From Sphaerochaeta globosa str. Buddy (lineage in GTDB: Bacteria > Spirochaetota > Spirochaetia > Sphaerochaetales > Sphaerochaetaceae), in contig NC_015152.1 in NCBI RefSeq assembly GCF_000190435.1, positions 2,920,458 to 2,984,457 of the forward strand: 64,000 nucleotides of DNA, in the 5' to 3' direction. The first letter of the stretch is position 1, and the number at the start of each line of letters is the position of its first letter. Positions 1 to 60,859 of this stretch are shown piece after piece. A program made the position numbers and the translations under genes. Under the pieces are notes generated by a model, which was given only the letters and a program-made list of their open reading frames with translations, was not told the origin of the DNA and did not search any database.

Positions 1-788
1 CTCAGGATTCTCGCCTTCGGCGGCTTTACCTTCTTCTCAAACACGATGAAAGGATCCTTGGCTATCTGATGTGCAGTCCAGCAGTACATGTCCGCTGCGG
101 TCATAATGGGTATGCGATAACGCCTTGGGATGAAGCGATAGCCCTTCTGCGCTTCTTTCTGCCAATGTTGGTAGCGCTTGATCTCATCTCTGATGAATGT
201 TTTGAATTGCTCAGGATGCTGCTGAACGTACTCTGAGTCCAAGGAGGTGAGGCCGCTTCCTCCAAGAGGGAGATAGCGCCTTCCAATCTCCAGGTCTTCC
301 TTTATATCGCGGATGAAGTTGATGTACTGCATCGCCCGACCAAGCATCACCGCATAACCGAAAGCCTCTTCACTGAGATCCATGATCCTTGCCATATACA
401 GGCCGATGACTTCGGCCGAGCCATAGATGTAGGTCAATACTTCATCGAGGCTTTCACACGTACGAGCAGACAGATCGTGTTCCATGGAGTCCAGGAACGC
501 TTCGGTCCAGGCAGGATCGAAATGTTTGCGGTTTTGCAGCTCCAAAAAAGCATCGATGATTACATCGCCGCTTGCCTTCCCTGATGTTAATGCCTCGGTA
601 TAGGTTTTCCGAAAAGCATGAAAAGCATCAGGGTCGACCGGTTGGTCGTCCACCAGGTTGTCAGCCACCCTGACAAACCCATACAAAGCATAGACATCCC
701 TGCGAACTACAGGAGGAAAGAAACGGGAACTGAAGTAATACGTCTTGCTCCCGTTTCTGAAAATGTGTTCATGTTTCTCAGCGACCAT
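1..788 (-). CDS. crtB: Phytoene synthase (squalene/phytoene synthase family), 3' end beyond window
   Basis: Translating the minus strand from an ATG at 788 gives 262 residues with no stop before the left edge, so the C-terminus is missing. The family condenses two prenyl diphosphates head to head, the first committed step to carotenoids. Both Asp-rich Mg-diphosphate motifs are visible: DNLVD near residue 40, and DIKED just before EIGRRYLP around residue 165. The late IPRRYRIPI segment is typical of bacterial CrtB. The start overlaps the end of the phytoene desaturase gene by 11 nt, which implies translational coupling. Whether the product is C40 or C30 cannot be decided from the sequence. An abnormal end cannot be excluded because it lies outside the window. 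Confidence 0.93.
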   Translation of the reverse strand, partial: MVAEKHEHIFRNGSKTYYFSSRFFPPVVRRDVYALYGFVRVADNLVDDQPVDPDAFHAFRKTYTEALTSGKASGDVIIDAFLELQNRKHFDPAWTEAFLDSMEHDLSARTCESLDEVLTYIYGSAEVIGLYMARIMDLSEEAFGYAVMLGRAMQYINFIRDIKEDLEIGRRYLPLGGSGLTSLDSEYVQQHPEQFKTFIRDEIKRYQHWQKEAQKGYRFIPRRYRIPIMTAADMYCWTAHQIAKDPFIVFEKKVKPPKARIL

Positions 789-2256
789 AGGTTTCTTGGA
801 TTTCCTTAGCAATCAATTCACTTGCAATGAGCACCATCGGTACTCCTACGCCCGGATGGGTATATTGGCCTGTGTAGTACAGATTCGATAATCGCTTGGC
901 TTGGTGTCTGGGACGGAACACTGCTGTTTGCAAAAGCGTGTGGCTCAGCCCCAACGCCGTGCCTTTGTAGGCATGGTAATCCTGGATGAAATCCCGATGC
1001 GTATACAGCCGTTTGACCAAGACATCCTGACTCAGATCCTCGCCGGTGACGCGCTTCACATGTTCGACCATCAAGGAGAAATATGCTTCCCTTTGTTCGT
1101 CGGTATCGGCAAGTCCGGGGGCTACCGGAACGAGCAGGAAGACGTTCTCACACCCTTGGGGTGCAGAACTTTGATCGGTTTTGGTGATGCAGCTGAGGTA
1201 AAAGCAGGGATCTTCCTGCGGCCATGCGGGGTTCTTGAAAATATCATCGAAATGTTCGTTCCAATCCTTGGCGAAGTAGAGGTTGTGATGCTCAAGACCC
1301 TTCAGCTCACGACCGATGCCCAGGTACGCAATGAACATGGAAGGAGCGACAACCCTCTTTTCCCAATAGGAGTCGGAATACGTCCGTTCCTCCTTCTTGA
1401 CCAAAGCTGTTTCGGTATGGTGATAGTCGGCGGAACTGACGATCACATCGGCTGTAAAATACCCTTTGGTTGTCTGTACGCCGACGGCCTTGCCGTCCTT
1501 GGTCACTATGTTCTTCACCTCTGTATCGGTGAGCAAAGAAACACCCAGTTCCCTACAAAGGTTGGCAAAACCCTCGGCCGCCCCTGCCATGCCTTTCTCA
1601 GGGAAGAATACACCCGGCTTAAGGTCTACATGACTCATGATCGAGTAAATGGCAGGTGCCTGGGCGGGATTGGTACCTAAGAATACCATGGCATACTCAA
1701 GAATCTGCTTGGCCCTGCGGTCCTGCACATAGTGCGAGACAAACGTGTCGAGTTTTCCCAACACTCCGAGCTTGAGGCCTTCAGTCATCAGGCGTCGGTT
1801 GAAAAACTGTCCGATATGCTTGTAGTCACGATAGAGGAAATCCTCCATGGCAACATCATATTTGTATGTCGATTGCTCCATGTAGGCTTTCAGGGCCTGA
1901 CCGCCACCCTTTTCAAAGGATTCGAAAATGGCAATGTCCTTTTCAAAATCCGGGGTAAGCGCTACCGTTCCCTCTTCCCCAAAGAACACCTTATAGTAGG
2001 GGTCCAACGGCTTGAGTTTGTAGTACGACTCCCGTTTCTTTCCAAAGAGGGAGAAGTAGCGTTCGAATACTTCGGGCATGAGGTACCAGGACGGCCCCAT
2101 ATCGAAGGTAAAGCCATCCTTATGCCAGTACCGGGCACGTCCGCCGAGCTCTGCGTTCTTTTCAACCACGGTTACCGTATATCCATCTCGTGCAAGCAAT
2201 GCAGCTGCGCTGAGGCCTCCAAAGCCTCCACCGATGACTAAAGCTTGTTTTCCCAT
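778..2256 (-). CDS. crtI: Phytoene desaturase (CrtI/CrtN family FAD-dependent)
   Basis: This 492-residue flavoprotein desaturates phytoene in the membrane during carotenoid synthesis. The N-terminal dinucleotide-binding motif GGGFGGLSAA (about residues 8-17) is followed by a Glu that ends the second beta strand, then GGRARYW and the GFTFDMGPSW substrate-side motif. The C-terminal signature YYTGQYTHPGVGVPMV is the usual second FAD-binding region of carotenoid desaturases. A reading frame opens at a TTG at 2262, but ATG 2256 lies 7 nt after an AGGA ribosome site and is preferred. It is the first gene of the crtI-crtB pair; the end overlaps crtB by 11 nt. The number of desaturations, and hence pigment colour, cannot be told. 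Confidence 0.93.
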   Translation of the reverse strand: MGKQALVIGGGFGGLSAAALLARDGYTVTVVEKNAELGGRARYWHKDGFTFDMGPSWYLMPEVFERYFSLFGKKRESYYKLKPLDPYYKVFFGEEGTVALTPDFEKDIAIFESFEKGGGQALKAYMEQSTYKYDVAMEDFLYRDYKHIGQFFNRRLMTEGLKLGVLGKLDTFVSHYVQDRRAKQILEYAMVFLGTNPAQAPAIYSIMSHVDLKPGVFFPEKGMAGAAEGFANLCRELGVSLLTDTEVKNIVTKDGKAVGVQTTKGYFTADVIVSSADYHHTETALVKKEERTYSDSYWEKRVVAPSMFIAYLGIGRELKGLEHHNLYFAKDWNEHFDDIFKNPAWPQEDPCFYLSCITKTDQSSAPQGCENVFLLVPVAPGLADTDEQREAYFSLMVEHVKRVTGEDLSQDVLVKRLYTHRDFIQDYHAYKGTALGLSHTLLQTAVFRPRHQAKRLSNLYYTGQYTHPGVGVPMVLIASELIAKEIQETYGR

Positions 2257-2416
2257 AGGCAAATCCTAGGGTGTTTATTGCGTAAAATCAAGGAAATAAT
2301 GCTCATCCATCCTTAAAAAGAAGGCTTCCGAATAAGAGAATGCAAAAGCTTTTCCCATCCTTTCTCCTTTTCCAAATGCGCTGGTTTGGATATGCTGAGG
2401 ACAAGGAGAATCAGAA

Positions 2417-17143: not shown

Positions 17144-17878
17144 ATGGACATTTCACATTTCTCCCTTTCACGGACAAACCTCAGCCAGCAGATTGCAGAC
17201 CATCTGGAAGAAGTCATTCTCTCCTCTCCTACCAGCAAGGTGACTGAGAAGCTTCCCGGTGAATTGAAGTTGGCCAAACAGTACAACGTCAGCCGGCCCG
17301 TCATCCGAGAAGCGCTCAAGCTCTTGCAGGAACGCGGCTTGATAACCCTGAAGAACGGAAGCGGTGCCTACGTCACCCGGCCCGAGAACGATACAGTCAT
17401 GAATGCAATCAACCGCATCATGCAGGTCGACCGCATCAAAAGCGACGACCTTACGCAGATGCGGGAAATCCTCGAACTCAGTTCGGTGGATTTGGCGGTG
17501 AAATGCATCACCGATGAGCAATTGAAGGAAATGGACTCTATCCTCTCCAAGTTCGAGGACACGAGCCTTCCTTTGAGGGAGCGGGTCAAGCTGGATGAGC
17601 AGTTCCATATCGCCATCGCCCAAGCTACCGGAAATGAGTTGTTAAGCATGTTCGTGGGGGTGCTCACCTCGTTGCTCCGAGACTATATGGGAAAGGGTAT
17701 TCTCATCGAAGGCGGCATCGAGGATGCAATCACGCGCCACCGCGAGATTTTTGAAGCACTGCAATGTCGCGATGCAAAGGCCGTCCACCAAGCAATGGTC
17801 GAACACCTGAAGGTTTCCAGCCTTAATGTCCAGTTCTTTGACAAACAGGGAACTACAGCAAAAAAACCGACGCTCTAA
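17144..17878 (+). CDS. GntR family regulator, FadR subfamily
   Basis: A 244-residue regulator. The winged helix-turn-helix occupies about residues 1-75 (LPGELKLAKQYNVSRPVIREALKLL then GLITLKNGSGAYV). The C-terminal all-helical FCD ligand domain shows the metal/ligand His residues in EQFHIAIAQATGN, ITRHREIFEAL and MVEHLKV. AAGGAGG is 5 nt before the ATG. It lies 47 nt after the aldolase gene and is co-directional, so it probably regulates the TRAP-aldolase operon in response to the substrate. CTGTAA-N7-TTACAG at 12412-12430 is a candidate site. Confidence 0.9.
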   Translation: MDISHFSLSRTNLSQQIADHLEEVILSSPTSKVTEKLPGELKLAKQYNVSRPVIREALKLLQERGLITLKNGSGAYVTRPENDTVMNAINRIMQVDRIKSDDLTQMREILELSSVDLAVKCITDEQLKEMDSILSKFEDTSLPLRERVKLDEQFHIAIAQATGNELLSMFVGVLTSLLRDYMGKGILIEGGIEDAITRHREIFEALQCRDAKAVHQAMVEHLKVSSLNVQFFDKQGTTAKKPTL

Positions 17879-17946
17879 CGATTCAGATATCAAATTTGAC
17901 TGTTTGCTGGTATGCTTTGAGGTGAACTCTCGGTAGGAGGTAAGTC

Positions 17947-19008
17947 ATGAGTCTGCTCCTTTCAGGCATCGACCCTAAGCTCATTACTCTAGCCCAGAAG
18001 ATTTTCGACCGCCAGTTCGAACTCGATTCCAAACTCGTCATCGAAATGGATGAACGGCGCAAGCAGCTGATGTTCCAGGACATCCTGTACAATTTCAGCT
18101 TTCTCACCACGGCGGTGAACCTGCAGGATGAGAAGATCTTTTCCAACTACGCCCTCTGGCTCTTCGAGTTGCTGTGTAATCTCATGAAGGACATCGACCG
18201 GGACCGCATCAAGGACCAGATGGTCGACCACTACCGCATCCTTTCATCCTGTGCCGATGAGCTTTACAAGGATGAGCAGGTCGATTTGGCAAAAAGCTAC
18301 TTGCAGAGGGCCATTGTCGTCACCGAGGATGCGGTGGACAACATCAAGGTGTCCGAACAGTTTCTGCAGGGTCGGCATGTGCCGATCAGGAAGGCCTACC
18401 TGAGTGCGTTGCTGCGCAGCGACACTGCGCAGGCGACCAAAATCATCCGTGATGCAGAGGCTGCCGGTATTCCCATCGAGGAGATTTACGAGGACATCAT
18501 CCGCATGACCATGCTCGAGGTCGGAGAGCTTTGGCACCAGAACAAGATTACCGTGGACAAGGAGCACTACTGCACCTCCACCACCCAGATGATTCTCTCC
18601 CTCTTCTACCCCGTCATTTTCAGCCAGCCATCCAAGGAGAAGAAGATAGTGACCTGCTGCGTGGGCAGTGAACTGCATGAGATGGGAGGCAGGATGGTCA
18701 GCGACCTCTTCGAATACCATGGATGGGAGAGCATTTTCCTCGGCTCGGCAGTTCCTGTTTCCTCCCTGTTGCATGCCATCGACGAACACCAGCCGAACCT
18801 TGTCGCCCTTTCGGTGACCATGCCCCAATACCTGGGACTCTGCCACGAAGCGGTACTTGCTATCAGAAAAGCTTACCCCGCCATCCTGCTCGCAGTCGGG
18901 GGAAGAGCGTTCCAAACGAGTAATAAAATCTATGAGCGGTGGCCGGTGGACATCTATACCGACCTTGCCACCGACCTGATCAGCTGGGCCGAAAAGGCGG
19001 TTAGGTAG
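17947..19008 (+). CDS. Cobalamin-binding protein with CarH-type photoreceptor motifs, no DNA-binding domain
   Basis: A 353-residue protein. Residues about 1-135 are helical and of unknown type. Residues 145-225 match the B12-binding four-helix cap, and 233-350 the B12-binding Rossmann domain. The cap has the W-x9-EH signature of AdoCbl photoreceptors (W196, E206, H207). His197 directly follows the Trp, as does the residue that ligates cobalt after illumination in Thermus CarH. The lower-ligand motif is E-x-H-x-x-G (H244), with Glu replacing the usual Asp. Unlike CarH there is no MerR-type helix-turn-helix. The diguanylate cyclase gene starts 1 nt after its stop, so this probably passes a light or B12 signal to c-di-GMP. 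GGAGG precedes the ATG by 7 nt. Confidence 0.85.
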   Translation: MSLLLSGIDPKLITLAQKIFDRQFELDSKLVIEMDERRKQLMFQDILYNFSFLTTAVNLQDEKIFSNYALWLFELLCNLMKDIDRDRIKDQMVDHYRILSSCADELYKDEQVDLAKSYLQRAIVVTEDAVDNIKVSEQFLQGRHVPIRKAYLSALLRSDTAQATKIIRDAEAAGIPIEEIYEDIIRMTMLEVGELWHQNKITVDKEHYCTSTTQMILSLFYPVIFSQPSKEKKIVTCCVGSELHEMGGRMVSDLFEYHGWESIFLGSAVPVSSLLHAIDEHQPNLVALSVTMPQYLGLCHEAVLAIRKAYPAILLAVGGRAFQTSNKIYERWPVDIYTDLATDLISWAEKAVR

Positions 19009-19009
19009 G

Positions 19010-20044
19010 GTGAGCAACTCCTTTTTTGTCCGTACCACACCACAAGGCCTTGTCCAGGAAGCCTATTGGTCAGACCCCGTCTCTCTGGCGATTCCCTATA
19101 AAACAACGCTTTCGGAGCTGTTTGAAGAGGAAAGTCGTAAAATTTTTGAGCAAACCTTTACCAAAGCGCTCCTAGAAAAACACAAGGTATTCTGCTCGCA
19201 TGTCACCATCATTGAACAACAGCTGGAGCTTTGCTTCTTCATTCTCAGCCTTGAGCAGGATGTCTGGGTACTGGGGGTCGATTACCTGATGCAGCTTCCT
19301 CCTGATTTGCAGGAATTTCAGAAAGCCTTGCTTTTCAAGATGATCGAGCAGGTAGCCTCGATGCATGCCCGCTACTCCTTGCACAACTCCCAAGTGGTCT
19401 ACAGCCACTTTGAGCAGATTCAGAAACTGAACAACCAGCTGGTGAACACCCAGCGTGAACTACAGCGTGCAAACAAGAAACTTGAGGCGCTGAATCTCGA
19501 TCTGAACAACCGCCTCGTCAAGGACCCCCTCACCGGCTTGGTCAGCCGCTATCAATACCGTTCGGAGATGCAGAGCGTCATCAATGCACACCCCCAAGCT
19601 CTCGGTCTGTTCGCTTTCATCGACATCGATGCCTTCAAACAAATCAACGACACCTATGGGCACGCTGTCGGTGACGAGTATTTGGTTGCCTTTGCAAAAC
19701 GCCTTGCATCCCTTCCATTCGAGAAATCCACTATTGCCATGCGCATCGCAGGCGACGAGTTCGGTCTCTATATGCACGAACTTGCATCCGTCGATGATGA
19801 AATCTTCTCATCACTTTACCGGAAGTTTGAAGTATATGTCACCGAGCGTCCACTCTCCACGTCCATAGGGGAGCTTGCAATCAGCTGCAGCGTCGGGTTT
19901 GCCGTCTATAACCGTGATACAACCAACCTGTTCGAGCTGATCGAGTATGCCGACTGGGCCATGTATCAGGCCAAACGCGGCGGGAAGCACGGATACCGGG
20001 TATTTGACAAGCTGCTGTACGACCAGCGATATTCCGAGCAGTAA
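19010..20044 (+). CDS. Diguanylate cyclase (GGDEF domain) with N-terminal sensor and coiled coil
   Basis: A 344-residue cytoplasmic protein. Residues about 1-95 look PAS-like (weak), 130-168 form a heptad-rich coiled coil, and 170-335 are a GGDEF domain (DPLTGLVSRYQY, FIDIDAFKQINDTYGH). The active-site motif is AGDEF (247-251), a variant found in active enzymes. Metal-binding Asp is in DIDAF. No RxxD inhibitory site occurs at the usual place just before AGDEF, so product inhibition may be absent. It starts at a GTG 1 nt after the B12-protein stop, implying coupled translation and a joint signalling function. I expect c-di-GMP synthesis controlled by the partner. Confidence 0.9.
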   Translation: MSNSFFVRTTPQGLVQEAYWSDPVSLAIPYKTTLSELFEEESRKIFEQTFTKALLEKHKVFCSHVTIIEQQLELCFFILSLEQDVWVLGVDYLMQLPPDLQEFQKALLFKMIEQVASMHARYSLHNSQVVYSHFEQIQKLNNQLVNTQRELQRANKKLEALNLDLNNRLVKDPLTGLVSRYQYRSEMQSVINAHPQALGLFAFIDIDAFKQINDTYGHAVGDEYLVAFAKRLASLPFEKSTIAMRIAGDEFGLYMHELASVDDEIFSSLYRKFEVYVTERPLSTSIGELAISCSVGFAVYNRDTTNLFELIEYADWAMYQAKRGGKHGYRVFDKLLYDQRYSEQ

Positions 20045-20111: not shown

Positions 20112-20861
20112 ATGGACTACACCATAGGAGAAGTCGCACAGCTTGCCTCGGTTTCCGAGCGTACGTTGCGCTATTACGACGAGCTGGGCCTTGTATGTCC
20201 CAAACGGGACAGGGGGCAGCTCTATCGGCTCTATTCGAAAGAAGATTTGAAACGACTGCAGACGGTTCTCTTCTATCGGGAGCTGGACTTCGACTTGGCA
20301 ACCATCAAGGCAATCATGGAAGATCCCGGGTTTTCCACCTTGCAGGCCTTGGAGGACCAGAGGAAGCGGTTGCTGGCAAGACGCAACCGCTTGGAGAGTC
20401 TGCTTCGCACCTTGGAAACAACCATCGCAGAACAGAGAGGAGAAAGAACCATGACAGACAAAGAACGATTTGAAGGATTAAAGAAAAATTTAATCGAGGA
20501 GAATGAGAAGAAGTTCGGAAAAGAGATTCGAGCGCGCTATGGAGAGGAGACGGTGGCCAAGTCGAATGCACAGATGATGGGTATGGATGAGAAGACCTAC
20601 AATGAGATGAACGAATTGGGCGCCCGGTTGTTGGAAAAGCTTGTCGAGGCGGAAAAAACGGGAGACGTTTACTCGCCCCTTGCCCGGGAGGTGGCCATGA
20701 TGCACAAGCAATGGCTTGCCTACACCTGGCCCTCCTACAACAAGGAGGCGCATGCAAATCTGGTTCGCATGTACGTCGACGATGAGCGTTTCAACGCCTA
20801 CTATCTCGGAAAGGCAGCCTTCCTGCGTGATGCAGTGCTGGCTTATCTGAATGAGGAATAA
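20112..20861 (+). CDS. MerR family regulator with TipAS antibiotic-recognition domain
   Basis: A 249-residue TipAL-like regulator. The N-terminal MerR domain (YTIGEVAQLASVSERTLRYYDELGL) is followed by a dimerisation helix to about residue 115. The C-terminal TipAS domain (about 120-249) has the typical MMHKQWLAYTWPSYNKEAHANLVRMYVDDERF. In Streptomyces TipAL this domain binds thiopeptides; here the ligand is unknown. ATG 20112, with AGGAGG 6 nt upstream, is preferred over an upstream in-frame start within the preceding gene. The 19-bp-spacer promoter with a dyad just upstream suggests it activates itself. No transporter or resistance gene is directly linked. Confidence 0.9.
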   Translation: MDYTIGEVAQLASVSERTLRYYDELGLVCPKRDRGQLYRLYSKEDLKRLQTVLFYRELDFDLATIKAIMEDPGFSTLQALEDQRKRLLARRNRLESLLRTLETTIAEQRGERTMTDKERFEGLKKNLIEENEKKFGKEIRARYGEETVAKSNAQMMGMDEKTYNEMNELGARLLEKLVEAEKTGDVYSPLAREVAMMHKQWLAYTWPSYNKEAHANLVRMYVDDERFNAYYLGKAAFLRDAVLAYLNEE

Positions 20862-20880: not shown

Positions 20881-22746
20881 TCAGCCCTCTGAATTGGAGG
20901 GCTTTTCTTCATCTCGTACAGCGTAGGTCTTGATGAAAGCTTCGGTTGGAGAACCATAGACCGATAAGAAACCGTCGAAAACACTCTGCCGCTCGGCAAT
21001 CAATTGCTCAGCAACACGATTGCTGATGTTCTGTGGCGTGATGAGCAATACCATCTCCCTCTCGGGCTGCAATTCCAAGTTGATGAAGGGAATTCTTGCT
21101 GCTCTCTCTTCAGCACTGCCTCTTCCATGCAGGATGGTGGCACCGGCTGCTCCATGTTTTCGGGCAAGGTCGACTACCTCGGCGGCAAAACCGCGATTGA
21201 CAACCACGAGGATGCATGTGTGGTCAACAGCTTTTTCTTCTGAAGCGGCTGCCATCTTCACCATGGGTATTTCTTGCGCACCATGCCTGGTTTTCTTTTG
21301 CCTGAATATTGTTCCTAACAGCATGATGGAAAAAACTGGAGCCATGGCAACCATGGCAATGACGCCGAATCCATCCACCAACACGTTTGCTGTCGGGATG
21401 GCCGAGGCGGCTCCTTGTGCAAAGGCCAGAACGAAGGTTGCCATCATCGGACCGGAAGCAACCCCTCCTGCATCAAATGCGATGCCGACAAACACGGGAT
21501 TGCACCAAAACGACAAGAACAAAGCGAAAGCAAAACCCGGGAGCAGGAAATACCATAACTTCACTTCAGGAACAGTGATGCGAACCATGGAGAGTGAAAT
21601 AGCGATGGCTGCACCCAAAGAGAGTGTCAGACGGATGAGTCCGAGAGGTATGGTACCTCCAGTGACTTCCTCGATCTGTACGCCCAGGACATGCACTGCC
21701 GGCTCCATGAGGACGACGATCAGGCCGAAGAGGAATCCTACTGCTATAAGGAGTCTCGTATCCATCGAGGCGATCTGCATACCAATCACCCTGCCCATAT
21801 CCATGAAGCCTGCGTGTACACCGGATAGAAACAACACTAGACCGATAAGTACAAGCAATAGGCCTTTGATAATCCCAAGGATTTCCTTTCGCTTCAGTTT
21901 AAATTTGAATCCGTTGTACACAAAAAACAAGAGCGTGATCGGCAGGAGCGCGATCAGGGACTCCCTTAATGTTGCAGGAATACTTTCCAGAATCGGAGCG
22001 ATTACCCCGACGGAAGGAATAAACACACTGGCCTCACCTTGAATGGTATGCTGCCCGGTGATGAAAGAGATGCACATGACTGCGAGGATGGGTCCGGCAC
22101 TCATGATGCCAACCAAGCCAAATGAGTTTTCCTCGGCATGCCTGCCGCCTTTCGCCTGGGATAGCCCAAGTGTTAAAGCCAGTACGAAAGGAGTCGTCAA
22201 AGCTCCAGTGGTTGCTCCTGAAGCATCGAACGATATTGCAAGAAACTCCTCAGAAACTAGAAAGCCCAGTACAAGAATGACCAAGTAGGTCATCAGCAGG
22301 AAGATATTGATCGATGGCTTATCCCTGAGCAGGCGGAGAATGCCCAGTGAAATCAGCAGGCCCACCCCGCCTGACACCATATATACAATGAGCCTGCTTG
22401 AGAGGGTATGGCCCGACGCTTCCTCAATTTGTGAACCCAGGATCAAAAGATCAGGCTCGGCAACCGTAATGAGAAATCCCAACAAAAAACTTAAAATCAC
22501 CACCCCTAGGAAGGTTTTGGAAGTAGCAACCTCATTGGACATGTACACGCCGATGGGGTGCATGGATAGGTCGATTCCCCATAAGAAAAGAGCAAGCCCC
22601 ACCAAGAGCATCGTACTTCCAACCAAGAAGCGAATAAACATATCCGTTTCCACTTCTATGATGGTAAAACATAATGCCACCACAACCAGCACGAGAGGGA
22701 CCAGTGATTGCAGGACTTCCTTGACTTTACCATAGAGAAGATTCAT
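20881..22746 (-). CDS. DUF1538 membrane protein with C-terminal P-II-like domain
   Basis: A 621-residue protein. Two homologous membrane halves each carry the same two motifs: E-P-x4-L-G-x-Q-I-E-E (97-109 and 348-360) and F-D-A-x-G-x6-T-F/P-V-L-A (173-190 and 424-442). These internal repeats are typical of DUF1538 and look like a duplicated transporter fold with paired half-helices. Residues about 508-607 form a P-II-like domain (VVVNRGFAAEVVDLARKHGA, then ATILHGRGSAE) without a uridylylation Tyr loop. It overlaps the preceding P-II gene (ATGA). The substrate is unknown; I infer an ion or small-solute transporter gated by the P-II-like parts. It converges with the TipA-like gene. Confidence 0.82.
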   Translation of the reverse strand: MNLLYGKVKEVLQSLVPLVLVVVALCFTIIEVETDMFIRFLVGSTMLLVGLALFLWGIDLSMHPIGVYMSNEVATSKTFLGVVILSFLLGFLITVAEPDLLILGSQIEEASGHTLSSRLIVYMVSGGVGLLISLGILRLLRDKPSINIFLLMTYLVILVLGFLVSEEFLAISFDASGATTGALTTPFVLALTLGLSQAKGGRHAEENSFGLVGIMSAGPILAVMCISFITGQHTIQGEASVFIPSVGVIAPILESIPATLRESLIALLPITLLFFVYNGFKFKLKRKEILGIIKGLLLVLIGLVLFLSGVHAGFMDMGRVIGMQIASMDTRLLIAVGFLFGLIVVLMEPAVHVLGVQIEEVTGGTIPLGLIRLTLSLGAAIAISLSMVRITVPEVKLWYFLLPGFAFALFLSFWCNPVFVGIAFDAGGVASGPMMATFVLAFAQGAASAIPTANVLVDGFGVIAMVAMAPVFSIMLLGTIFRQKKTRHGAQEIPMVKMAAASEEKAVDHTCILVVVNRGFAAEVVDLARKHGAAGATILHGRGSAEERAARIPFINLELQPEREMVLLITPQNISNRVAEQLIAERQSVFDGFLSVYGSPTEAFIKTYAVRDEEKPSNSEG

Positions 22747-23441
22747 GACCTGACTCCCCTCTGCTCTGCAACTCTGTTCTCAAATAAACCACTGGTCCTG
22801 AGAACCGGAAGGATGAAGAGAATTCCATTACCTGGGTTCGCCAGGCTCAGTGATTCGGTAATACTCTCTTTGATCGCCTGCAGCGTATCTTTTTTGGATA
22901 GGATGATCACAATATCCTTCTGTGGTTCTATGTTCAGAGAAAAAAAGAAGTCCTTTGGTATACCCGCCCCATGTCCATGCACAATGGTGCCACCTCTCGC
23001 ACCTGCTTTTCGTGCTGCGTACACGCATTCTACTCCCCTGCCCCGCTCCACAATAGTAAGAAGGGCAAAATAGTCATCCATAGGTTTTTGGCTGGGATCA
23101 GGCTTCTTTTCCACGGTATCCCAATTCTTGAATGGGATGGAGAATGCAATCCCCTTTCGTCGCTTATAAAATTTGAATGTTTGGAAGACCATCTCATGCA
23201 AGCCGACACACAGCTCATACCCTGCGCTGATGATCACAATTTCCTTGTGAGCTTGGGAAGGTCTGACTGTATTGAAGAATCTTGAGCGTGTGGTTCCTTC
23301 TGCGAGCAGAATGGTTCCCCCGATTGCTCCAAGCTCCTGGGCCTTTTGCAGCAGAATATTTGCCTTTCCTTTGTTGACAACAGCAAAAAATACGGTATCG
23401 ATGGTAAGCTCCCTTGCACCTGATGAATACTCATAACCCAT
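22743..23441 (-). CDS. Tandem P-II-like signalling protein
   Basis: A 232-residue protein made of two P-II-like halves (about 14-105 and 124-215). Each has the N-terminal strand, then V-N/E-x-G-x-G/A, A-x-x-x-G-A-x-G-G-T-I and a Gly-rich turn (LLAEG or VHGHG). The T-loop is short and lacks the modified Tyr of GlnB, so nucleotide or ion sensing is likelier than nitrogen signalling by uridylylation. Its stop overlaps the DUF1538 gene start. There is no ribosome site. TAGTAT (23453-23448) ends 6 nt before the ATG, so the mRNA may be leaderless. Confidence 0.8.
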   Translation of the reverse strand: MGYEYSSGARELTIDTVFFAVVNKGKANILLQKAQELGAIGGTILLAEGTTRSRFFNTVRPSQAHKEIVIISAGYELCVGLHEMVFQTFKFYKRRKGIAFSIPFKNWDTVEKKPDPSQKPMDDYFALLTIVERGRGVECVYAARKAGARGGTIVHGHGAGIPKDFFFSLNIEPQKDIVIILSKKDTLQAIKESITESLSLANPGNGILFILPVLRTSGLFENRVAEQRGVRS

Positions 23442-39069: not shown

Positions 39070-39675
39070 CTACCTTCCAAGTTTTGCAACTTCTTGCACT
39101 GCGAAGGTAAAGGCGATCCCGCTACCGGGTTTTTGCATGCACGAAAGGCCGGCAATCGCCGCTAAAATATTGTGTGTATCGTCGCGTTTCACGAACATGA
39201 GCAAAAGCTCTTTTTCTGCAACCAATGTCGAGCCGTAAAAAGCAATATCATCAGGCAGTGCAGTACCCCGGCCATCGATGATGGTTCCCCCGCCTGCTCC
39301 AACCTTTCTGGCGGCGCTCATGATGTCATCGCCATACCCATTGGTGCAGATAACATTGATCAGGTCCCACTCACCACCCTTTTGCGGTGTGCTTGGTGTC
39401 CCATCCCATGAAGCAGTGACAGCAGCAAGGATTCCGTGAACATGCCGATCAGAGAGCAGAGCCTCCCATACTGCGGGCTTCACCGCCTCCGAGACCACTG
39501 TCATCAGAATTTCCTTATGAGAGTCTCCTAAGCCTAGAAGGCACAAGAACGAATTGGAAGCCGTACCCCGTCCGGTAAGGATGGTACCACCCGTACTGCC
39601 GGCCCGCTTGGCCGTCAGCATCAGAGCATCGGCCTTCCCTTCCTCAACAATTGCAAATAACAAGGTATTACTCAT
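39070..39675 (-). CDS. Tandem P-II-like signalling protein, second copy
   Basis: A 201-residue protein of two P-II-like halves (about 4-85 and 104-195). Each has the hallmark AxKRAGSTGGTILTGRG-type run, here SAARKVGAGGGTIIDGRG in the second half. As in the other module, the T-loop lacks a uridylylation Tyr context. It is the second gene of its pair: its ATG overlaps the DUF1538 stop (ATGA), and GGAGG lies within the upstream gene. It probably binds the partner's cytosolic side or senses nucleotides or ions. Not GlnB/GlnK, because the standard T-loop and Prosite motifs are missing. Confidence 0.82.
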   Translation of the reverse strand: MSNTLLFAIVEEGKADALMLTAKRAGSTGGTILTGRGTASNSFLCLLGLGDSHKEILMTVVSEAVKPAVWEALLSDRHVHGILAAVTASWDGTPSTPQKGGEWDLINVICTNGYGDDIMSAARKVGAGGGTIIDGRGTALPDDIAFYGSTLVAEKELLLMFVKRDDTHNILAAIAGLSCMQKPGSGIAFTFAVQEVAKLGR

Positions 39676-41138
39676 ATGCCCTTTCCTCCTTTCGCAGCTG
39701 CCATCTTCTTTTGTGTCCGTTTGTACACGAGGCCAAGAAGTTCGACGATGACCACGGGGGTCATGGAAACAAATATGATTACACCGAACGCATCGCTAAC
39801 AGGATTGCCCCCCATTGCCACCGATGAACCGATGGCAAAGGAAAGGATGAATGTCGAGGCCATGGGGCCGGAGGACACGCTGCCGCTGTCAAACGACAGT
39901 CCTACGAACAAGTCGGGGACCCAGAAAGAGAGCAATACGGCCAAGGCATAGGTGGGGAGAACAAAATACCAGATGCTCAGGCCGGTGATCACCCTCACCA
40001 TGGAAAGAAATCCGGAAAGCCCTACTCCGATTGCCAGGGCGCCAAGCATGACTGGTTTCTTCAGATGGCCTTGGGTTATAACCTGCACCTGGTCCACCAG
40101 AACCCAGACTGAGGGTTCACTGAGGACGGTTATGGCCCCGATGACAGAGCCCACCACCAAAAGAAGATAGGGATTGAACATTCCTATGGTGTACCCGATT
40201 TGATAGCCGACGGGAATAAAGCCTCCATTGGACCCCACAAAGAAGAGCGTGAGACCAAGAAAGAGGTAGATGAAACCAATGCCGAGACGAACGAGCTGGC
40301 CCAAGGGCATTTTCAAGAGAAACACTTGATAGAAAAGGCACAGCAGCAAGAGCGGCACGAGTGCCTTGGAAGTCATAATGATGCTTGGTAGGAACAGGGA
40401 GGGAAAATTGCCGTCAATGGCAATACTTACTTCTGACGGTCCCGCTGAACCTCCTCCTTGCGTGAAGAGGGCAAGGATTGCAATGGCAAGCGTAGGCCCG
40501 ATGAGCGCAAGGGAGACATAGCCGAAATTGTCAGCGTCGTTTTGTTTTTTCTGGACACGGGCGATACCTACACCGATGGCGATGATGAAGGGAACGGACA
40601 GGGGACCGGTTGCGGCTCCTCCGCTGTCAAAGGCGATGCCCATCATCTCAGACGGACCGAAGATAAACAGAATAAAAATCAACGTGTAGCTGATCAGGTA
40701 AATCCAGCGAAGCGACAGATGAAATATTACCCGGGCTATACCGATCATAAAATACAAGCCTACACCGAGGGCTATCATGGCTATGAGGCTGGCGGCCGAC
40801 AAAAAGGGATTCACCCCTTTTATCTGTTCCACCAACACTACAATATTTGGTTCTGCCAGTATGATTACCACACCAACAACAAGGCCGGTTCCCAGAAGGA
40901 CAATAAGGTGTTTGGATTGCATTGCAGCCGATCCAATTTTCTCTCCGATGGGCAACAGGCCGATTTCGGTTCCCAGCAAGAAAAGGGAGAGCCCACCAAT
41001 AATGCAAGCACCACCGATAAGGAAGGAGACCAGAGACCCTTCAGGCAAGGGCGTAAGAAAGAAATGCATAAGGGTTACGAGCACAAGGATGGGGATTATG
41101 GACGAGCCAACTTCCTTGAGCTTCTTGAGCAACTCCAT
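39672..41138 (-). CDS. DUF1538 membrane protein, second copy, without fused P-II domain
   Basis: A 488-residue membrane protein. It shows the same internal duplication as the 20.9-kb copy: E-P-N/S-x4-L-V-x-Q-I/V (96-106 and 341-351) and F-D-S-G-x5-G-P (170-180 and 416-426). About 12-14 hydrophobic segments are seen. It ends after the second membrane half, with no fused P-II domain. AAGGAGG lies 6 nt before the ATG. The paired E-P and F-D-S-G motifs in half-helix-like positions suggest a duplicated transport fold. Its ligand is unknown. Confidence 0.82.
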   Translation of the reverse strand: MELLKKLKEVGSSIIPILVLVTLMHFFLTPLPEGSLVSFLIGGACIIGGLSLFLLGTEIGLLPIGEKIGSAAMQSKHLIVLLGTGLVVGVVIILAEPNIVVLVEQIKGVNPFLSAASLIAMIALGVGLYFMIGIARVIFHLSLRWIYLISYTLIFILFIFGPSEMMGIAFDSGGAATGPLSVPFIIAIGVGIARVQKKQNDADNFGYVSLALIGPTLAIAILALFTQGGGSAGPSEVSIAIDGNFPSLFLPSIIMTSKALVPLLLLCLFYQVFLLKMPLGQLVRLGIGFIYLFLGLTLFFVGSNGGFIPVGYQIGYTIGMFNPYLLLVVGSVIGAITVLSEPSVWVLVDQVQVITQGHLKKPVMLGALAIGVGLSGFLSMVRVITGLSIWYFVLPTYALAVLLSFWVPDLFVGLSFDSGSVSSGPMASTFILSFAIGSSVAMGGNPVSDAFGVIIFVSMTPVVIVELLGLVYKRTQKKMAAAKGGKGI

Positions 41139-41320: not shown

Positions 41321-41394
41321 GGGGGTGTAGCTCAGTTGGCTAGAGCGTTTGAATGGCATTCAAAAGGTCAGGGGTTCGATTCCCCTTACCTCCA
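41321..41394 (+). tRNA. tRNA-Ala(GGC)
   Basis: A full cloverleaf of 74 nt is readable. The anticodon stem TTTGA/TCAAA encloses ATGGCAT with anticodon GGC, and the T arm is AGGGG-TTCGATT-CCCCT. The acceptor stem has G3 opposite T70, the alanine identity pair, and discriminator A. The 3' CCA is not encoded (CTA... follows). It has its own promoter and terminator, so it is transcribed alone. Confidence 0.95.
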
Positions 41395-41665: not shown

Positions 41666-42445
41666 TTAGGGTGCGGGCTGCGTCACCGTAGCCTGATCAA
41701 GGGCAATGGAAGTCTGGGCCAGCAATCTTCCATTCATACTTGCACCGGTTCCCACCTCAACATTGGTTTTACCCAATATAATTCCCTCAAAGTGGGAAGT
41801 TGCTCCAAAGCTCACGGAACCAGCTACCTGCCAGAAAATGTTTTTTGCCAAAGCTCCACCGGCAAGCGTCACCTGCAAGGCGCTGGCCAACGTAAGATCC
41901 CCATCAATCTGAAGAATCCAAGTGTCAGTCGCCGAACCGGTGAGGGTGAGATTAGCCCCACTGATATTCACCGAGCTTGTCCATTTGTAGAGGCCGGGGG
42001 CAAGATTCTGACCACCGATTAAACCAGACATGAGGTTTAGCTCATCCGGAAGAGTTCTGCCGGCTGCAAAGGTATACGCTGTCTCCATATCTGCTACTGC
42101 GGTAGTCAAGTTTGAAGGCGTAGGCGAAGTCATGTCAGCGGCATAGAGCAGGCCGGTGACCTGTGTTGATGTTGCCGATGTTCCATTGAGGGTTTCGGAG
42201 AATCCTGTGTAATAGGATGTTGCCGTCGGGCTTAATCCCAAGTCCCCGGTGATAACAGAAGAAGGGACTGTCGAGACTCCGGATTTTGCCAGTATCACAA
42301 AATCGCCGGCTGATCCCAGATCAACTACTGTAGAGCCGATGCCAGTAGAGGGAATTCCTCCCTCACATCCGATAAACGAGACTGCAAGTATGATAATTGC
42401 AAACATTGCTACGAGAACTCTTCTTACATTTTTGGTTTTTTTCAT
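41666..42445 (-). CDS. Ice-binding-like (DUF3494) predicted lipoprotein
   Basis: A 259-residue surface protein. The signal peptide ends in a lipobox-like FIGC (Cys 27), so it should be lipid-anchored. The rest is the DUF3494 fold: VDLGSAGDFVILAKSGVSTVPSS at the start, GDLGLSP, the Ala/Thr-rich middle with AYTFAAGRTLP, and DTWILQIDGDLTL plus NIFWQVAGSVSFG near the end. Members include ice-binding proteins of polar microbes, but many are adhesins or of unknown role in mesophiles. GGAGG lies 6 nt before the ATG. Upstream is an unusually long non-coding region, downstream a possible hairpin (41565-41597). Confidence 0.85.
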   Translation of the reverse strand: MKKTKNVRRVLVAMFAIIILAVSFIGCEGGIPSTGIGSTVVDLGSAGDFVILAKSGVSTVPSSVITGDLGLSPTATSYYTGFSETLNGTSATSTQVTGLLYAADMTSPTPSNLTTAVADMETAYTFAAGRTLPDELNLMSGLIGGQNLAPGLYKWTSSVNISGANLTLTGSATDTWILQIDGDLTLASALQVTLAGGALAKNIFWQVAGSVSFGATSHFEGIILGKTNVEVGTGASMNGRLLAQTSIALDQATVTQPAP

Positions 42446-53284: not shown

Positions 53285-53911
53285 ATGCAGATTCATCCAT
53301 GGCAATCGATACAATTATCCGACTATGAAGCACACATGAGCATGGATGACATCAGGCAGCTACAGACACTGAATGACTCCATGCGCGAGCAGCTGCAATG
53401 CTACCGGACAGAGACCATCATAATCTTGGGTGTTTGCGCAGGAAATGGGCTTGAGCATGTCGACACAAGCATAACCCGCATACTCTACGGTGTGGATATC
53501 AACACCGATTACCTGCAGATGGCAAGCCTCCGCCACCATGGATTGTCGGACATCTTCGTCCCCTTGGCTTGCAATGTTGCACAAGAAGCAGAGAAGCTGC
53601 CTCATGCACAGCTAGTCATAGCCAATCTCTTCGTTGAGTACATAGGGTATGAAGCCTTCAAGCATGCCGTTACGTGCATCGACCCTTCCTATGTATCGTT
53701 GATCATCCAACAACAGACGGGAGATGTCTTTGTCTCCACCTCCCCCTACCAGGATGCATTTTCGCATCTCCAGGAGATTCTCCATCCCATCACCGAAGAG
53801 GGAATTATTTCGGCGCTGAAGGCAATTGATTACTGCTACTGCTTTCGAAAGCAGATGGACCTACCCAACCACAAGTATTTTGTAAGGTTGGATTTCAAAC
53901 GGCTCGATTAA
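53285..53911 (+). CDS. SAM-dependent methyltransferase-like protein
   Basis: A 208-residue protein with a class I methyltransferase core. Motif I is ILGVCAGNGLEHVD (about 47-60), motif II ends in YGVDINTDYLQMA, and motif IV-like ANLFVEYIG follows. The C-terminal half has several aromatic residues and no known substrate domain. GGAGG lies 7 nt before ATG 53285, which is preferred over a frame from 53243. It converges with the EAL gene by a 4-bp overlap. Substrate unknown. Confidence 0.78.
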   Translation: MQIHPWQSIQLSDYEAHMSMDDIRQLQTLNDSMREQLQCYRTETIIILGVCAGNGLEHVDTSITRILYGVDINTDYLQMASLRHHGLSDIFVPLACNVAQEAEKLPHAQLVIANLFVEYIGYEAFKHAVTCIDPSYVSLIIQQQTGDVFVSTSPYQDAFSHLQEILHPITEEGIISALKAIDYCYCFRKQMDLPNHKYFVRLDFKRLD

Positions 53912-55812
53912 CCTACCAGCTCCAGAAAAGCTTCCTTCTCCAAAGGCTTGGAGTAGTAGTAGCCCTGTACCCGTTCGATACCTATTTTTTTGATCATCTC
54001 CAACTGCTGTTCAGTCTCCACACCCTCGGCGATAAGTACCTTGCCCAACTTGTGCAACATATCCGACAGCAGGGTGAGCATGGTTGGATTTGACATGGCC
54101 CCTTGTATGACGCTCTTGTCGAATTTCACATAGGCATAGGGAAGGTCCATCAGAGCCTGCAGATTGGAATATCCGGTACCGAAGTCATCGAGGGCGAATT
54201 TGATGTCCTTCAATGAGAGTTCAAGCATCACATCAGCGACCATATCATACGACTGCAAGACCACAGACTCGGTAATCTCAAAGCCGATTTTCCTACTCGG
54301 GATGTTTTCCTGTTGAATGATCGAAAGCAGTGTTTGGCCCATCTGTCTGGACGTAAAATCCTCACCGCTCAGATTCACTGAGATATACTCAAGGGCATTC
54401 TTGGCAAGGTTCTGCCGTATCAGGGTGCAAACCTTGGCAAGCAGGATCTGGGTAAGGTGGACGATCAAACCAGTCTGTTCAGCTAGAAAGATGAACTGTG
54501 AAGGATTCAGAAACCCAAGATGCTCATCGTTGATGCGCATCAGTGCCTCTGCTGAGACGATGCGCCCGGTTTGCACATCATACATTGGTTGATAGTGCAC
54601 CAATACCTGCTCGGGATTGCGGATCGATGCCCGAAGTGCAGAAATAATGTTCATCGTCTGCTGTTGGCTCAGGGCATCCTTCTTTGTGTAGACGAATACC
54701 GCCCGTTTGCGTACCGATCTGATCTCAGACTGCATCTGCTTGTATGCCTGATGGTATTCATCCAGCGTTGCGGCTTGCTTGGGGATGGAGAGTAAACCAA
54801 GATTCATCTGGATGAACGTAGGAGCGCCCTGCACTTCCCAACCCTGCTCCATGCGTTGACGGATTGCCTGGATGACCGAGCCGCCTGATCCGCCCTTGCT
54901 GGAAGGAAGGCAGAGACAGAACTGTTGCTGGTCGATACGAAAGACTTCATTCGAGCCGCCCAGGGTCTTGAGAAACAGTGCAAGCTCGACAAGCAACCGA
55001 TCGGCAGATACCGACCCATTTTTCGCGATGAAGTAGGGAAAATTTTCAATGTCCACCAAAATGATGGTGTAGGGAGTCTGGAAACGGAACAAACGAATCA
55101 ACTTGCGTTGCAGCAAAGCCTCGGTGGGAAGACCGGTCAGACTGTCGAACGTAATGGAGTCCCGCTGGCCGACAAGGTAATAGAGGACGAGCATGAAGGC
55201 ATTGACCATCATGAATAGCAAGGAGGAATGGGTTATTGCCAGAGAGAACAGAGAAACAGCAAACGAGAGCGGCAACAGCAGGGAAATGAAGAGGAAGGAG
55301 CCTTGGAGGTTTTTCCTATGGCCCAGCGTAGGCATAAGCATGGCAAAGCAGTAGAAAGCCGATAATGAGAGCATATAGGTACTTCCTGATGAAGGAAGCA
55401 ACTGTTCAAAAGTTGGATTAAGTGGATAGAACTGTTGTGTGGGGATGTCCCGGATTGTCAGTACTGCCAAGACTACCAACGGAATGTCATGTACGATTGT
55501 AAGGATGGTTACCAGCTTGGGATCATCCATGACATTGATGGCATTGAAATGCATCCACGCAGAAAGCATGAAGGGAAGCGCCAGGGCATGTGCGGCCCAC
55601 ACTACACGATGAACAGTCAGGGGAAAACTAATCACCCCTTGCTTGTCCAGCATCAAGCTCAAGGAGAGCACGACATAGATTGAATATGCAATGGTCAATT
55701 CAGAAAAGAACCAGCTTCCTCTATCTTTTCTCAATAAGGGAAACCTTATGACATCAAAAAGAATTGCGAGCATGAGAATGCTCGAAAGCAAGGTGACCCC
55801 ATAATAGTGCAT
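53908..55812 (-). CDS. Membrane-anchored c-di-GMP phosphodiesterase (degenerate GGDEF + EAL)
   Basis: A 634-residue protein. Residues about 1-215 hold seven or so membrane spans resembling a 7TM sensor. A GGDEF-like domain (about 220-385) has RIDQQQF in place of R-x-GGDEF and cannot be a normal cyclase. The EAL domain (about 390-634) keeps the catalytic set: EALMRIN, ISVNLSGEDF, ITESVV, DDFGTGYSNL and VKFDKSVI. It should therefore hydrolyse c-di-GMP, possibly with the degenerate GGDEF domain as a GTP sensor. GGAG is about 6 nt before the ATG. The 3' end overlaps the convergent methyltransferase gene. Confidence 0.92.
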   Translation of the reverse strand: MHYYGVTLLSSILMLAILFDVIRFPLLRKDRGSWFFSELTIAYSIYVVLSLSLMLDKQGVISFPLTVHRVVWAAHALALPFMLSAWMHFNAINVMDDPKLVTILTIVHDIPLVVLAVLTIRDIPTQQFYPLNPTFEQLLPSSGSTYMLSLSAFYCFAMLMPTLGHRKNLQGSFLFISLLLPLSFAVSLFSLAITHSSLLFMMVNAFMLVLYYLVGQRDSITFDSLTGLPTEALLQRKLIRLFRFQTPYTIILVDIENFPYFIAKNGSVSADRLLVELALFLKTLGGSNEVFRIDQQQFCLCLPSSKGGSGGSVIQAIRQRMEQGWEVQGAPTFIQMNLGLLSIPKQAATLDEYHQAYKQMQSEIRSVRKRAVFVYTKKDALSQQQTMNIISALRASIRNPEQVLVHYQPMYDVQTGRIVSAEALMRINDEHLGFLNPSQFIFLAEQTGLIVHLTQILLAKVCTLIRQNLAKNALEYISVNLSGEDFTSRQMGQTLLSIIQQENIPSRKIGFEITESVVLQSYDMVADVMLELSLKDIKFALDDFGTGYSNLQALMDLPYAYVKFDKSVIQGAMSNPTMLTLLSDMLHKLGKVLIAEGVETEQQLEMIKKIGIERVQGYYYSKPLEKEAFLELVG

Positions 55813-57752: not shown

Positions 57753-58292
57753 ATGAGAAAGTCAAACCTGTTGCTCATCATCTTGCTTTTCGTTTCGGCG
57801 TTGGGTTCGCTTGGCGGCGCTTCCTTTTCATCGGTGGAGGGAAAGCTCTTCAATGACAAGGCATTCATCTTTCCTGACGACTTGCTTGAACAGGGGCCGG
57901 TGGTTGTTGCCCTTACGCTCAGCTCGTCAAGAAAAAACGGGGAAGAACAGCAAGGTCTATTCATCGATTGGCAGAAGAAATTGAAAGCTGCTTTCTCTCC
58001 CCTACGTTCTGTTTCCATCTACCACGTCTCGGTTATCGACGGGGCCCCTTTCTTTGTGCGGGGAGCGATCAGAGGCGGTATTGCAAAGGAGTATGGGGAC
58101 ATCCTAGAAAGCTCACAAGGCGGGGTGCTCTTTCTCTCCAAGTCAGAACGCTGGGCAGCCGATGCTGCAATTCCTATCGATGGACAACCCACCTTGGTAG
58201 TGCTTTCTGAAAATGGCAGCATTCTTGGTTTTATCAAAGGGGAATACAGCGAGCAGAGAGCAGAACAGTTGCAAACACTCTTGGGCCTCTAG
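57753..58292 (+). CDS. Exported protein of unknown function
   Basis: A 179-residue protein with a signal peptide (about 1-24; KSNLLLIILLFVSALGSLGG). I do not recognise the family. The mature part (VEGKLFNDKAFIFPDDLLEQGPVVVALTL then SVSIYHVSVID and DGQPTLVVLSENGSILGFIKG) has the alternating strand and helix pattern of a thioredoxin-like fold but no CxxC. It starts 23 nt after the EamA gene. No ribosome site is seen; TATACT (57738-57743) lies 9 nt before the ATG, so it seems to have its own promoter and a leader of only about two bases. It converges with the next gene by a 4-bp overlap. Confidence 0.7.
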   Translation: MRKSNLLLIILLFVSALGSLGGASFSSVEGKLFNDKAFIFPDDLLEQGPVVVALTLSSSRKNGEEQQGLFIDWQKKLKAAFSPLRSVSIYHVSVIDGAPFFVRGAIRGGIAKEYGDILESSQGGVLFLSKSERWAADAAIPIDGQPTLVVLSENGSILGFIKGEYSEQRAEQLQTLLGL

Positions 58293-60715: not shown

Positions 60716-60859
60716 TCTATCCTCCAATGTAAGCAGTATACATGATTATGTTCAATATCATAAAAGAAATAAGGTAACAAAAAGATCAAACTAAAACCGT
60801 TGAAACAGAGAGTTGAGATAATGAAAAGCAATGGATGATGCATATGCAACCTACCTTCC

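Follow-up and report, generated by a model that had tools for sequence, protein, structure and literature searches.

CarH is a B12 photoreceptor repressor of Thermus and Myxococcus. In the photocobilins, a B12-binding domain is joined to a photoglobin; members with the B12 domain at either terminus and fusions to cyclases have already been reported, and the control of a cyclase by a B12 photoreceptor was demonstrated for AbDPcob, also with separate proteins (PMC10979010). The same study includes a gene-neighbourhood network and mentions 506 sequences, and a second study reports 1561 mined candidates and further BBD-CBD fusions (PMC11796333). Both photoglobin–B12 sensors and cyclases controlled by light are known from the literature; what we describe here is a variant with the globin first and a separate output gene, encoded in a 64,000-nucleotide stretch of the genome of Sphaerochaeta globosa str. 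Buddy (contig NC_015152.1), hereafter “the window”. It consists of the sensor gene P0001 and the diguanylate cyclase gene P0002. With a probability of about 0.6, we read the pair as a split, trans-acting relative of the photocobilins, in which, by analogy, an adenosylcobalamin (AdoCbl) light receptor would act on a PAS/long-helix module.

P0001 (17947–19008, on the plus strand, as are all features of the pair) is an open reading frame (ORF) of 353 amino acids with an ATG start and a TAG stop (19006–19008), and direct reading of the sequence places an AGGAGG ribosome-binding site at 17935–17940, 6 nt before the ATG. P0002 (19010–20044, 344 amino acids) begins on the same strand with a GTG at 19010, 1 nt past the stop of P0001, exactly where the initial annotation had a GGDEF gene with an AGDEF site starting. 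The B12 domain of P0001 has a helical half (B12-binding_2, 18388–18600, residues 148–218, Pfam E 1.3e-12) and a Rossmann half (B12-binding, 18643–18924, residues 233–326, Pfam E 3.7e-14). In the helical half lie W196-H197 (18532–18537) and E206-H207 (18562–18567), the latter forming W-x9-EH with W196, and in the Rossmann half lies the axial ligand motif E242-x-H244-x-x-G247 (E242-x-H244, 18670–18678); the W-x9-EH, the His right after the Trp and the E-x-H-x-x-G first noted in this protein are all confirmed. W196, E206, H207 and H244 are invariant in every row with a called residue among 81 aligned rows (the window and 80 relatives), and because they are unchanged the signature is more than chance. 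These relatives are the best 80 of at least 438, obtained in a second round of searches in which 13 full-length proteins, chosen regardless of their neighbours, were the query against genome contigs, and all counts of 80 loci or relatives below rest on this sample. The GxxW (G193-x-x-W196), EH (E206-H207) and GxxxP (G266-x-x-x-P270) elements of the SignatureFinder light-responsive B12 signature are all present. H197 sits at the position of CarH His132, as the bis-His light state would require of the sequence; a His follows the Trp in 34 of 45 cyclase-coupled rows versus 2 of 28 kinase-coupled rows, and the residue at this position is Gln in SasPcob and Tyr in AbDPcob (PMC11796333).

The closest sequences in the PDB are SasPcob (8j2w/8j2x, 2.1e-21), AbPcob (8j2y, 5.8e-15) and CtMerR (8jbs, 1.5e-12), with further matches to MttC and CarH (5c8d, E 6e-7). 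The first description of P0001 as a CarH-type B12 photoreceptor coupled to a cyclase holds for the photoreceptor type and the coupling, but the protein is nearer to the photocobilins than to CarH, and its globin had been overlooked. With CarH it shares the B12 domain, W-x9-EH, the axial His and the His right after the Trp, whereas it has a globin instead of a DNA-binding domain and a cyclase as the neighbouring output gene. No DNA-binding Pfam match was found in the sensor, in agreement with the first description; the MerR-type domain of CarH is absent, and the NCBIfam CarH model gives 54.8 bits against a cut-off of 400. With the photocobilins P0001 shares the W, E-H and H residues of the B12 domain and a photoglobin with the biliverdin-contacting Asp and Trp; photocobilins control a cyclase in cis or in trans, and by analogy we propose trans control for P0001. 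It differs from SasPcob and AbDPcob/AbPcob in that the globin comes first and does not follow the B12 domain (PMC10979010 already mentions such a group), in that the cyclase is a separate adjacent gene, and in the His after the Trp.

In the structural model of P0001 (predicted local distance difference test (pLDDT) 94.1), residues 142–352 match SasPcob with Z 26.7 and a root mean square deviation of 1.9 over 207 residues; CtMerR (23.4), methionine synthase 1bmt (22.3), the methylamine corrinoid protein 3ezx (21.9) and the best CarH entry (20.8) follow. It is hardly credible that P0001 is a corrinoid protein of a methyltransferase system merely adjoining a cyclase gene. Such proteins share the B12 fold, and P0001 does have NCBIfam matches to MtgC, MtaC and MtbC, but all are far below the cut-off (TIGR02370 42.8 versus 215.3 bits), and there is no methyltransferase gene among the Pfam-scanned neighbours. 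The trimethylamine corrinoid protein MttC (7xcn), moreover, has F, V and L aligned with W196, E206 and H207, and so has none of the three adenosyl-site residues, P0001 has a globin domain, and the partner genes recur.

Ahead of the B12 domain, sequence profiles and the helix layout of the model indicate a phycobilin-type globin (photoglobin) domain (17974–18333, residues ~10–129); a fold search with the whole protein is filled by the B12 domain. In a direct comparison, the alignment of P0001 34–77 with the SasPcob globin scores 1.1 bits, which is not significant alone, and that with AbPcob 11.6 bits. With a profile built from 34 N-domains, matches are obtained to AbPcob (4.8e-6), allophycocyanin beta (2.1e-5), SasPcob (9.8e-5) and smURFP (0.0021). 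In an hhalign comparison, 73 N-domains match the C-domains of five B12-first proteins from actinobacteria with a probability of 97.0% (E 9.1e-11, an E-value that refers to a small set, so that the bit score is the one to read). On the strength of these matches we regard the N-terminus as a photoglobin in swapped order. The phycobiliproteins (allophycocyanin) and smURFP belong to the same sequence family, and the CxRD of allophycocyanin aligns with M42-x-x-D45; P0001, unlike them, has no Cys at the attachment position and has its globin fused to a B12 domain. By alignment, D45 (18079–18081) matches SasPcob Asp270 and W71 (18157–18159) matches Trp296, the chain and paper numberings of SasPcob being related by an offset of +6 derived from W61/E71/H72/H108. 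Asp270 contacts biliverdin rings A–C and is a His in AbPcob, a poor biliverdin binder, and Trp296 contacts ring D and the corrin (PMC10979010). D45 is present in 72 of the 77 rows with a residue there (38/43 cyclase-coupled, 27/27 kinase-coupled, 7/7 others) and W71 in 78 of 78.

One could imagine a sensor led by its globin, in which a scavenged bilin or other small molecule in the globin pocket is the main signal and B12 a helper. The N-domain is related to the phycobiliproteins (by profile; PMC10151467), and D45 and W71 are kept though only 7 of 79 relatives' genomes gave a heme oxygenase match (1/50 and 6/29; many are bins, possibly incomplete). We consider this improbable, since the globin is the less conserved part, its mean identity to the window in the cyclase-coupled rows being 41% versus 52% for the B12 part, and no bilin source was found. 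In the complete host genome, a single contig of 3.3 Mb (99.97% complete) of which the window is part, there is no match for heme oxygenase (PF01126; 5 of 14 controls match) or for porphobilinogen deaminase (PF01379; 11 of 14 controls match), and the latter enzyme is found in 14 of a set of 51 genomes that includes the host (many are bins, possibly incomplete). The anaerobic heme-opening HutW/ChuW (TIGR04107) was rejected as a candidate, the best host score being 137.9 versus 400 bits, with all 14 controls matching and one over the cut-off. With no bilin route found in the host and heme oxygenase found in few relatives, which sets this group apart from the photocobilins, the bilin pocket appears to be conserved without an obvious home-made ligand. 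In the BBAG-2 clusters, too, a bilin-type globin is associated with a B12-binding protein, but the two have a gene each, accompanied by heme oxygenase and pre-PcyA (PMC10151467); in P0001 they are fused, and its host gave no heme oxygenase match. A bilin need not be required, because in AbDPcob, where biliverdin occupancy is ~20%, AdoCbl alone supports light activation (PMC10979010).

As for B12 itself, the host genome encodes a CobA-type adenosyltransferase (176.7 bits), no PduO-type adenosyltransferase was found in it, and it has three cobalamin riboswitches. These adjoin genes for a BtuB-like receptor (159 bits against a cut-off of 599.7), an ABC importer of Btu/heme type, whose substrate is read from the riboswitch because its matches are all below the cut-off, and NrdD. 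Since there is no porphobilinogen deaminase match but there are CobA and riboswitch-linked uptake genes, AdoCbl is probably available to this host by scavenging only. At L146 286–3319, a cobalamin riboswitch is followed by the genes for the anaerobic ribonucleotide reductase NrdD and its activase.

The linkage of homologues to GGDEF genes, whose absence the initial annotation would have taken as a refutation, extends beyond the window and recurs across phyla. Directly downstream of the sensor gene and on the same strand, the 80 loci have a GGDEF gene in 44 cases, a histidine kinase gene in 28, another gene in 7 and none in 1; these classes come from profiles built on loci of this analysis, and Pfam was run on 17 downstream genes of first-round loci. 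In other words, a cyclase or kinase stands directly downstream in 72 of 80 loci, versus 32 of 545 other flanking ORFs with GGDEF/kinase domains, and in all but one of the 72 coupled loci the gap or overlap is between −110 and +50 nt. The coupling of sensor and partner is strongly conserved. Among the exceptions, the next ORF contains the partner N-domain in L061, L081 and L116 (at contig ends), L099 and L101; the frame of L105 is broken and its partner follows at a greater distance, L110 lies at a contig end and L096 is unlinked. In the first round, a cyclase or kinase gene was next downstream in 17 of 26 loci (L027–L052; by Pfam or phmmer; L052 unscanned). Some other gene followed in L034 and L044 and a 147-amino-acid ORF, unscanned, in L045, no ORF was in range in L040, L041 and L046, and the Skermanella loci L047 and L049 had no partner by annotation. 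In the fusobacterium Ilyobacter polytropus, the sensor gene overlaps the GGDEF gene. The sensor has a match in 25 of 392 genomes of the phylum (at E <= 1e-15) and in 22 of 72,556 plasmid records, and occurs in one of three other genomes of the genus (G325, 77% identity), the other two being without it. No second full-length copy was found in the host genome, where the sole other match (24% identity) covers the B12 part in a 1194-amino-acid frame.

The model of P0002 (pLDDT 88.7, predicted template modelling score 0.55) consists of a PAS-like domain (19019–19294, residues 4–95, judged by its strand/helix order), a single long helix (19301–19519, residues 98–170) and the GGDEF catalytic domain (19520–19987, residues 171–326, Pfam E 3.7e-30). 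Pfam calls no PAS in P0002 itself, and PAS families exceed the Pfam cut-off in the partners of L030 and L039. The helix ends in a conserved IQKLNNxLVNxxRxLxxxNxxLxxLN, whose IQKLNNxLVN..R is the most conserved part of the partners ahead of the catalytic domain, and we propose that it would serve as a docking and signalling helix. A profile of the cyclase-partner N-terminus recognises 75 of 79 downstream neighbours (43/44 GGDEF, 27/28 kinases, 5/7 others), of which only the kinase and “other” matches are independent, since 40 cyclase partners made up the training set of the profile and are found again by it. It matches 3 of 545 other ORFs, two of them displaced partners in L099 and L105. Compared profile to profile, the cyclase and kinase partner N-termini match with a probability of 99.45 (E 4.8e-22, to be read, as above, through its bit score) over 167 columns, a comparison in which the long helix brings a composition bias of up to 11.9 bits. 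By these profiles, the cyclase and kinase partners share one N-terminus, PAS-like plus long helix. In a tree of 77 sensors, a mostly cyclase-coupled branch, drawn from the Spirochaetota, Bacillota, Mycoplasmatota, Fusobacteriota and Synergistota, stands apart from a mostly kinase-coupled branch, and at least three changes of output are needed, with 13 phylum labels among the rows. Transfer between phyla is suggested but, as many rows are metagenome bins, no more than suggested.

The active site of P0002 is AGDEF (19748–19762, residues 247–251), so that a GGDEF domain above the Pfam cut-off carries a variant of the diguanylate cyclase motif; by eye, no RxxD is seen at the usual inhibitory-site position before it. 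The 45 cyclase-coupled partners, the window included, have AGDEF (22), SGDEF (6), GGDEF (3), GGEEF (2) or near variants (3), and nine, among them a 137-amino-acid fragment, lack any match to the search pattern. The eight others (L082, L085, L091, L092, L093, L097, L100 and L102) are Bacillota, several with gut-type names, and they include all five rows without D45 (L091, L092, L093, L097 and L100); in this Bacillota branch, without a GGDEF-like motif and in five cases also without the bilin-contacting Asp, function may have changed. The eight partners and the A in place of G in P0002 would suit a real sensor pair whose non-catalytic cyclase domain is a switch binding GTP or c-di-GMP (cyclic di-GMP). 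This is very improbable for P0002, given that 28 of the 45 partners have AGDEF or SGDEF, that the other catalytic positions are conserved in the partner alignment, and that VCA0965 of Vibrio cholerae, which shares the AGDEF site, is catalytically active (PMC3974145). Two GGDEF-EAL proteins are encoded on the minus strand of the window (53911–55812 and 58292–60727), which makes c-di-GMP turnover likely.

From the domains, the key residues, the conserved gene pair and the shared partner domain, the following course of events can be proposed, in which we infer AdoCbl binding, photolysis, P0002 binding and the sign of the effect from CarH and the photocobilins. As a head-to-tail dimer, P0001 would bind AdoCbl made from scavenged B12, with H244 as the lower ligand and with W196, E206 and H207 surrounding the adenosyl group. 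Green light would break the Co–C bond, the adenosyl group would depart, and the helical B12 half would rearrange, perhaps with H197 becoming a ligand, as the corresponding His does in CarH. The globin, lying against the B12 domain, would relay the change and, given a bilin, might also confer sensitivity to red light. For the output, P0001 would bind the PAS/long-helix part of P0002 and so alter cyclase activity and c-di-GMP, and by analogy with AbDPcob light would raise the output of P0002. AdoCbl-bound AbPcob and the two-chromophore SasPcob light states raised the activity of a separate cyclase domain (PMC10979010).

The following points weigh against this reading: (i) in place of the GxxH of the published light signature P0001 has S241-E-L-H244, with Ser for the Gly of the photocobilins, and of the 45 cyclase-coupled rows only 2 have Gly at 241, of the 28 kinase-coupled rows 16; (ii) the W/E/H contacts would equally serve a light-blind AdoCbl sensor; (iii) the fold alone does not favour light, 1bmt and 3ezx scoring at least as high as the CarH rows, and Foldseek puts CtMerR 8jbs first and SasPcob fifth by E-value; (iv) with AdoCbl alone, SasPcob affected the cyclase in the opposite direction on illumination (PMC10979010), which leaves the sign unsure for this pair; (v) no PilZ receptor was found in the host genome; and (vi) several relatives are Clostridia with gut-type names, which would see little light. 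The main competing explanation, which we think rather unlikely, is that P0001 senses AdoCbl supply and not light, reporting the AdoCbl status of a B12-auxotrophic cell and tuning c-di-GMP. B12 supply should matter to a host with no porphobilinogen deaminase match but with CobA and riboswitch-linked uptake-type genes, the relatives in anaerobes with gut-type names would be explained, and dark AdoCbl binding lowered the cyclase activity of AbDPcob relative to the apo protein (PMC10979010). Against this, W196 and E206-H207, which are fully conserved, hold the photolabile adenosyl group in CarH and photocobilins, and the nearest solved sequences are photoreceptors. Sensing of light and of B12 supply could also coexist in P0001.

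Returning to the photocobilin reading, a wider and more tentative proposal is that of a class of detachable sensors, by which photoreceptors would be widespread in anaerobes. A photoglobin–B12 protein would plug into a PAS/long-helix “socket” common to cyclases and histidine kinases, the bilin-type pocket would be kept in hosts making no tetrapyrrole and so hold a scavenged or unknown ligand, and the CarH-like His would have been added in the cyclase-coupled branch. The published GxxH filter would, if applied strictly, reject most of that branch, which may for this reason have been overlooked so far. The words heme oxygenase, operon and spirochaet are absent from the main texts of PMC10979010 and PMC11796333, in which clostrid occurs in one reference only, and a 2022 census of c-di-GMP sensing (PMC8846402) makes no mention of B12 or cobalamin. 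A keyword literature search over titles and abstract starts recognised no paper on such a two-gene module; Schneider et al. 2022 may describe such neighbourhoods. If the proposal is true, B12 photobiology would extend to anaerobes, and nature would offer a green-light cyclase made of two genes, whose exchangeable socket could serve in optogenetics. A further question becomes testable, namely what occupies the conserved bilin pocket in a cell seemingly making neither heme nor bilin.

Variations on the sensor and its surroundings were seen elsewhere. Three first-round proteins of 236–259 amino acids (L029, L030 and L032), too short for a globin, are encoded directly upstream of a histidine kinase gene, and the B12 domain by itself may there rely on a partner of the same sort. 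In 9 of the 80 loci (L066, L067, L071, L072, L073, L075, L078, L101 and L105), the cyclase gene is followed by a gene for a membrane-type protein of ~180 amino acids; it does not occur at the window pair, and the L066 copy has no Pfam match. On Streptomyces plasmids, B12-first photocobilin-like genes (L053 2462–3523, L057 2432–3526) lie between PP2C phosphatase and STAS genes.

The nearest relatives place the host as a Sphaerochaeta-type spirochaete. Upstream of the pair, a GntR/FCD regulator gene (17144–17878) ends a run of TRAP-transporter and aldolase-family genes, and downstream a MerR-TipAS regulator gene begins at 20112 (all by Pfam). Carotenoid genes had been reported from the same window, and they are indeed there: a CrtI-family desaturase gene (781–2262; 685.6 bits with the CrtID model, whose cut-off is 640) and, crossing the left edge of the window, a gene of the squalene/phytoene-synthase family (L144 6892–7770, window base 1 being L144 6959), with a CruF-like gene just beyond that edge (carotenoid region, window 1–2262 / L144 6278–7770). 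They lie ~16 kb from the sensor/cyclase pair, outside its gene run, and no link between the two was found. An Rfam scan of the window gave a single match, a tRNA at 41321. Two DUF1538 membrane protein genes (20881–23441 and 39070–41138) each adjoin a P-II-like gene, the latter near the cut-off, and an ice-binding-like protein is encoded at 41669–42445 (PF11999, E 6.6e-73).

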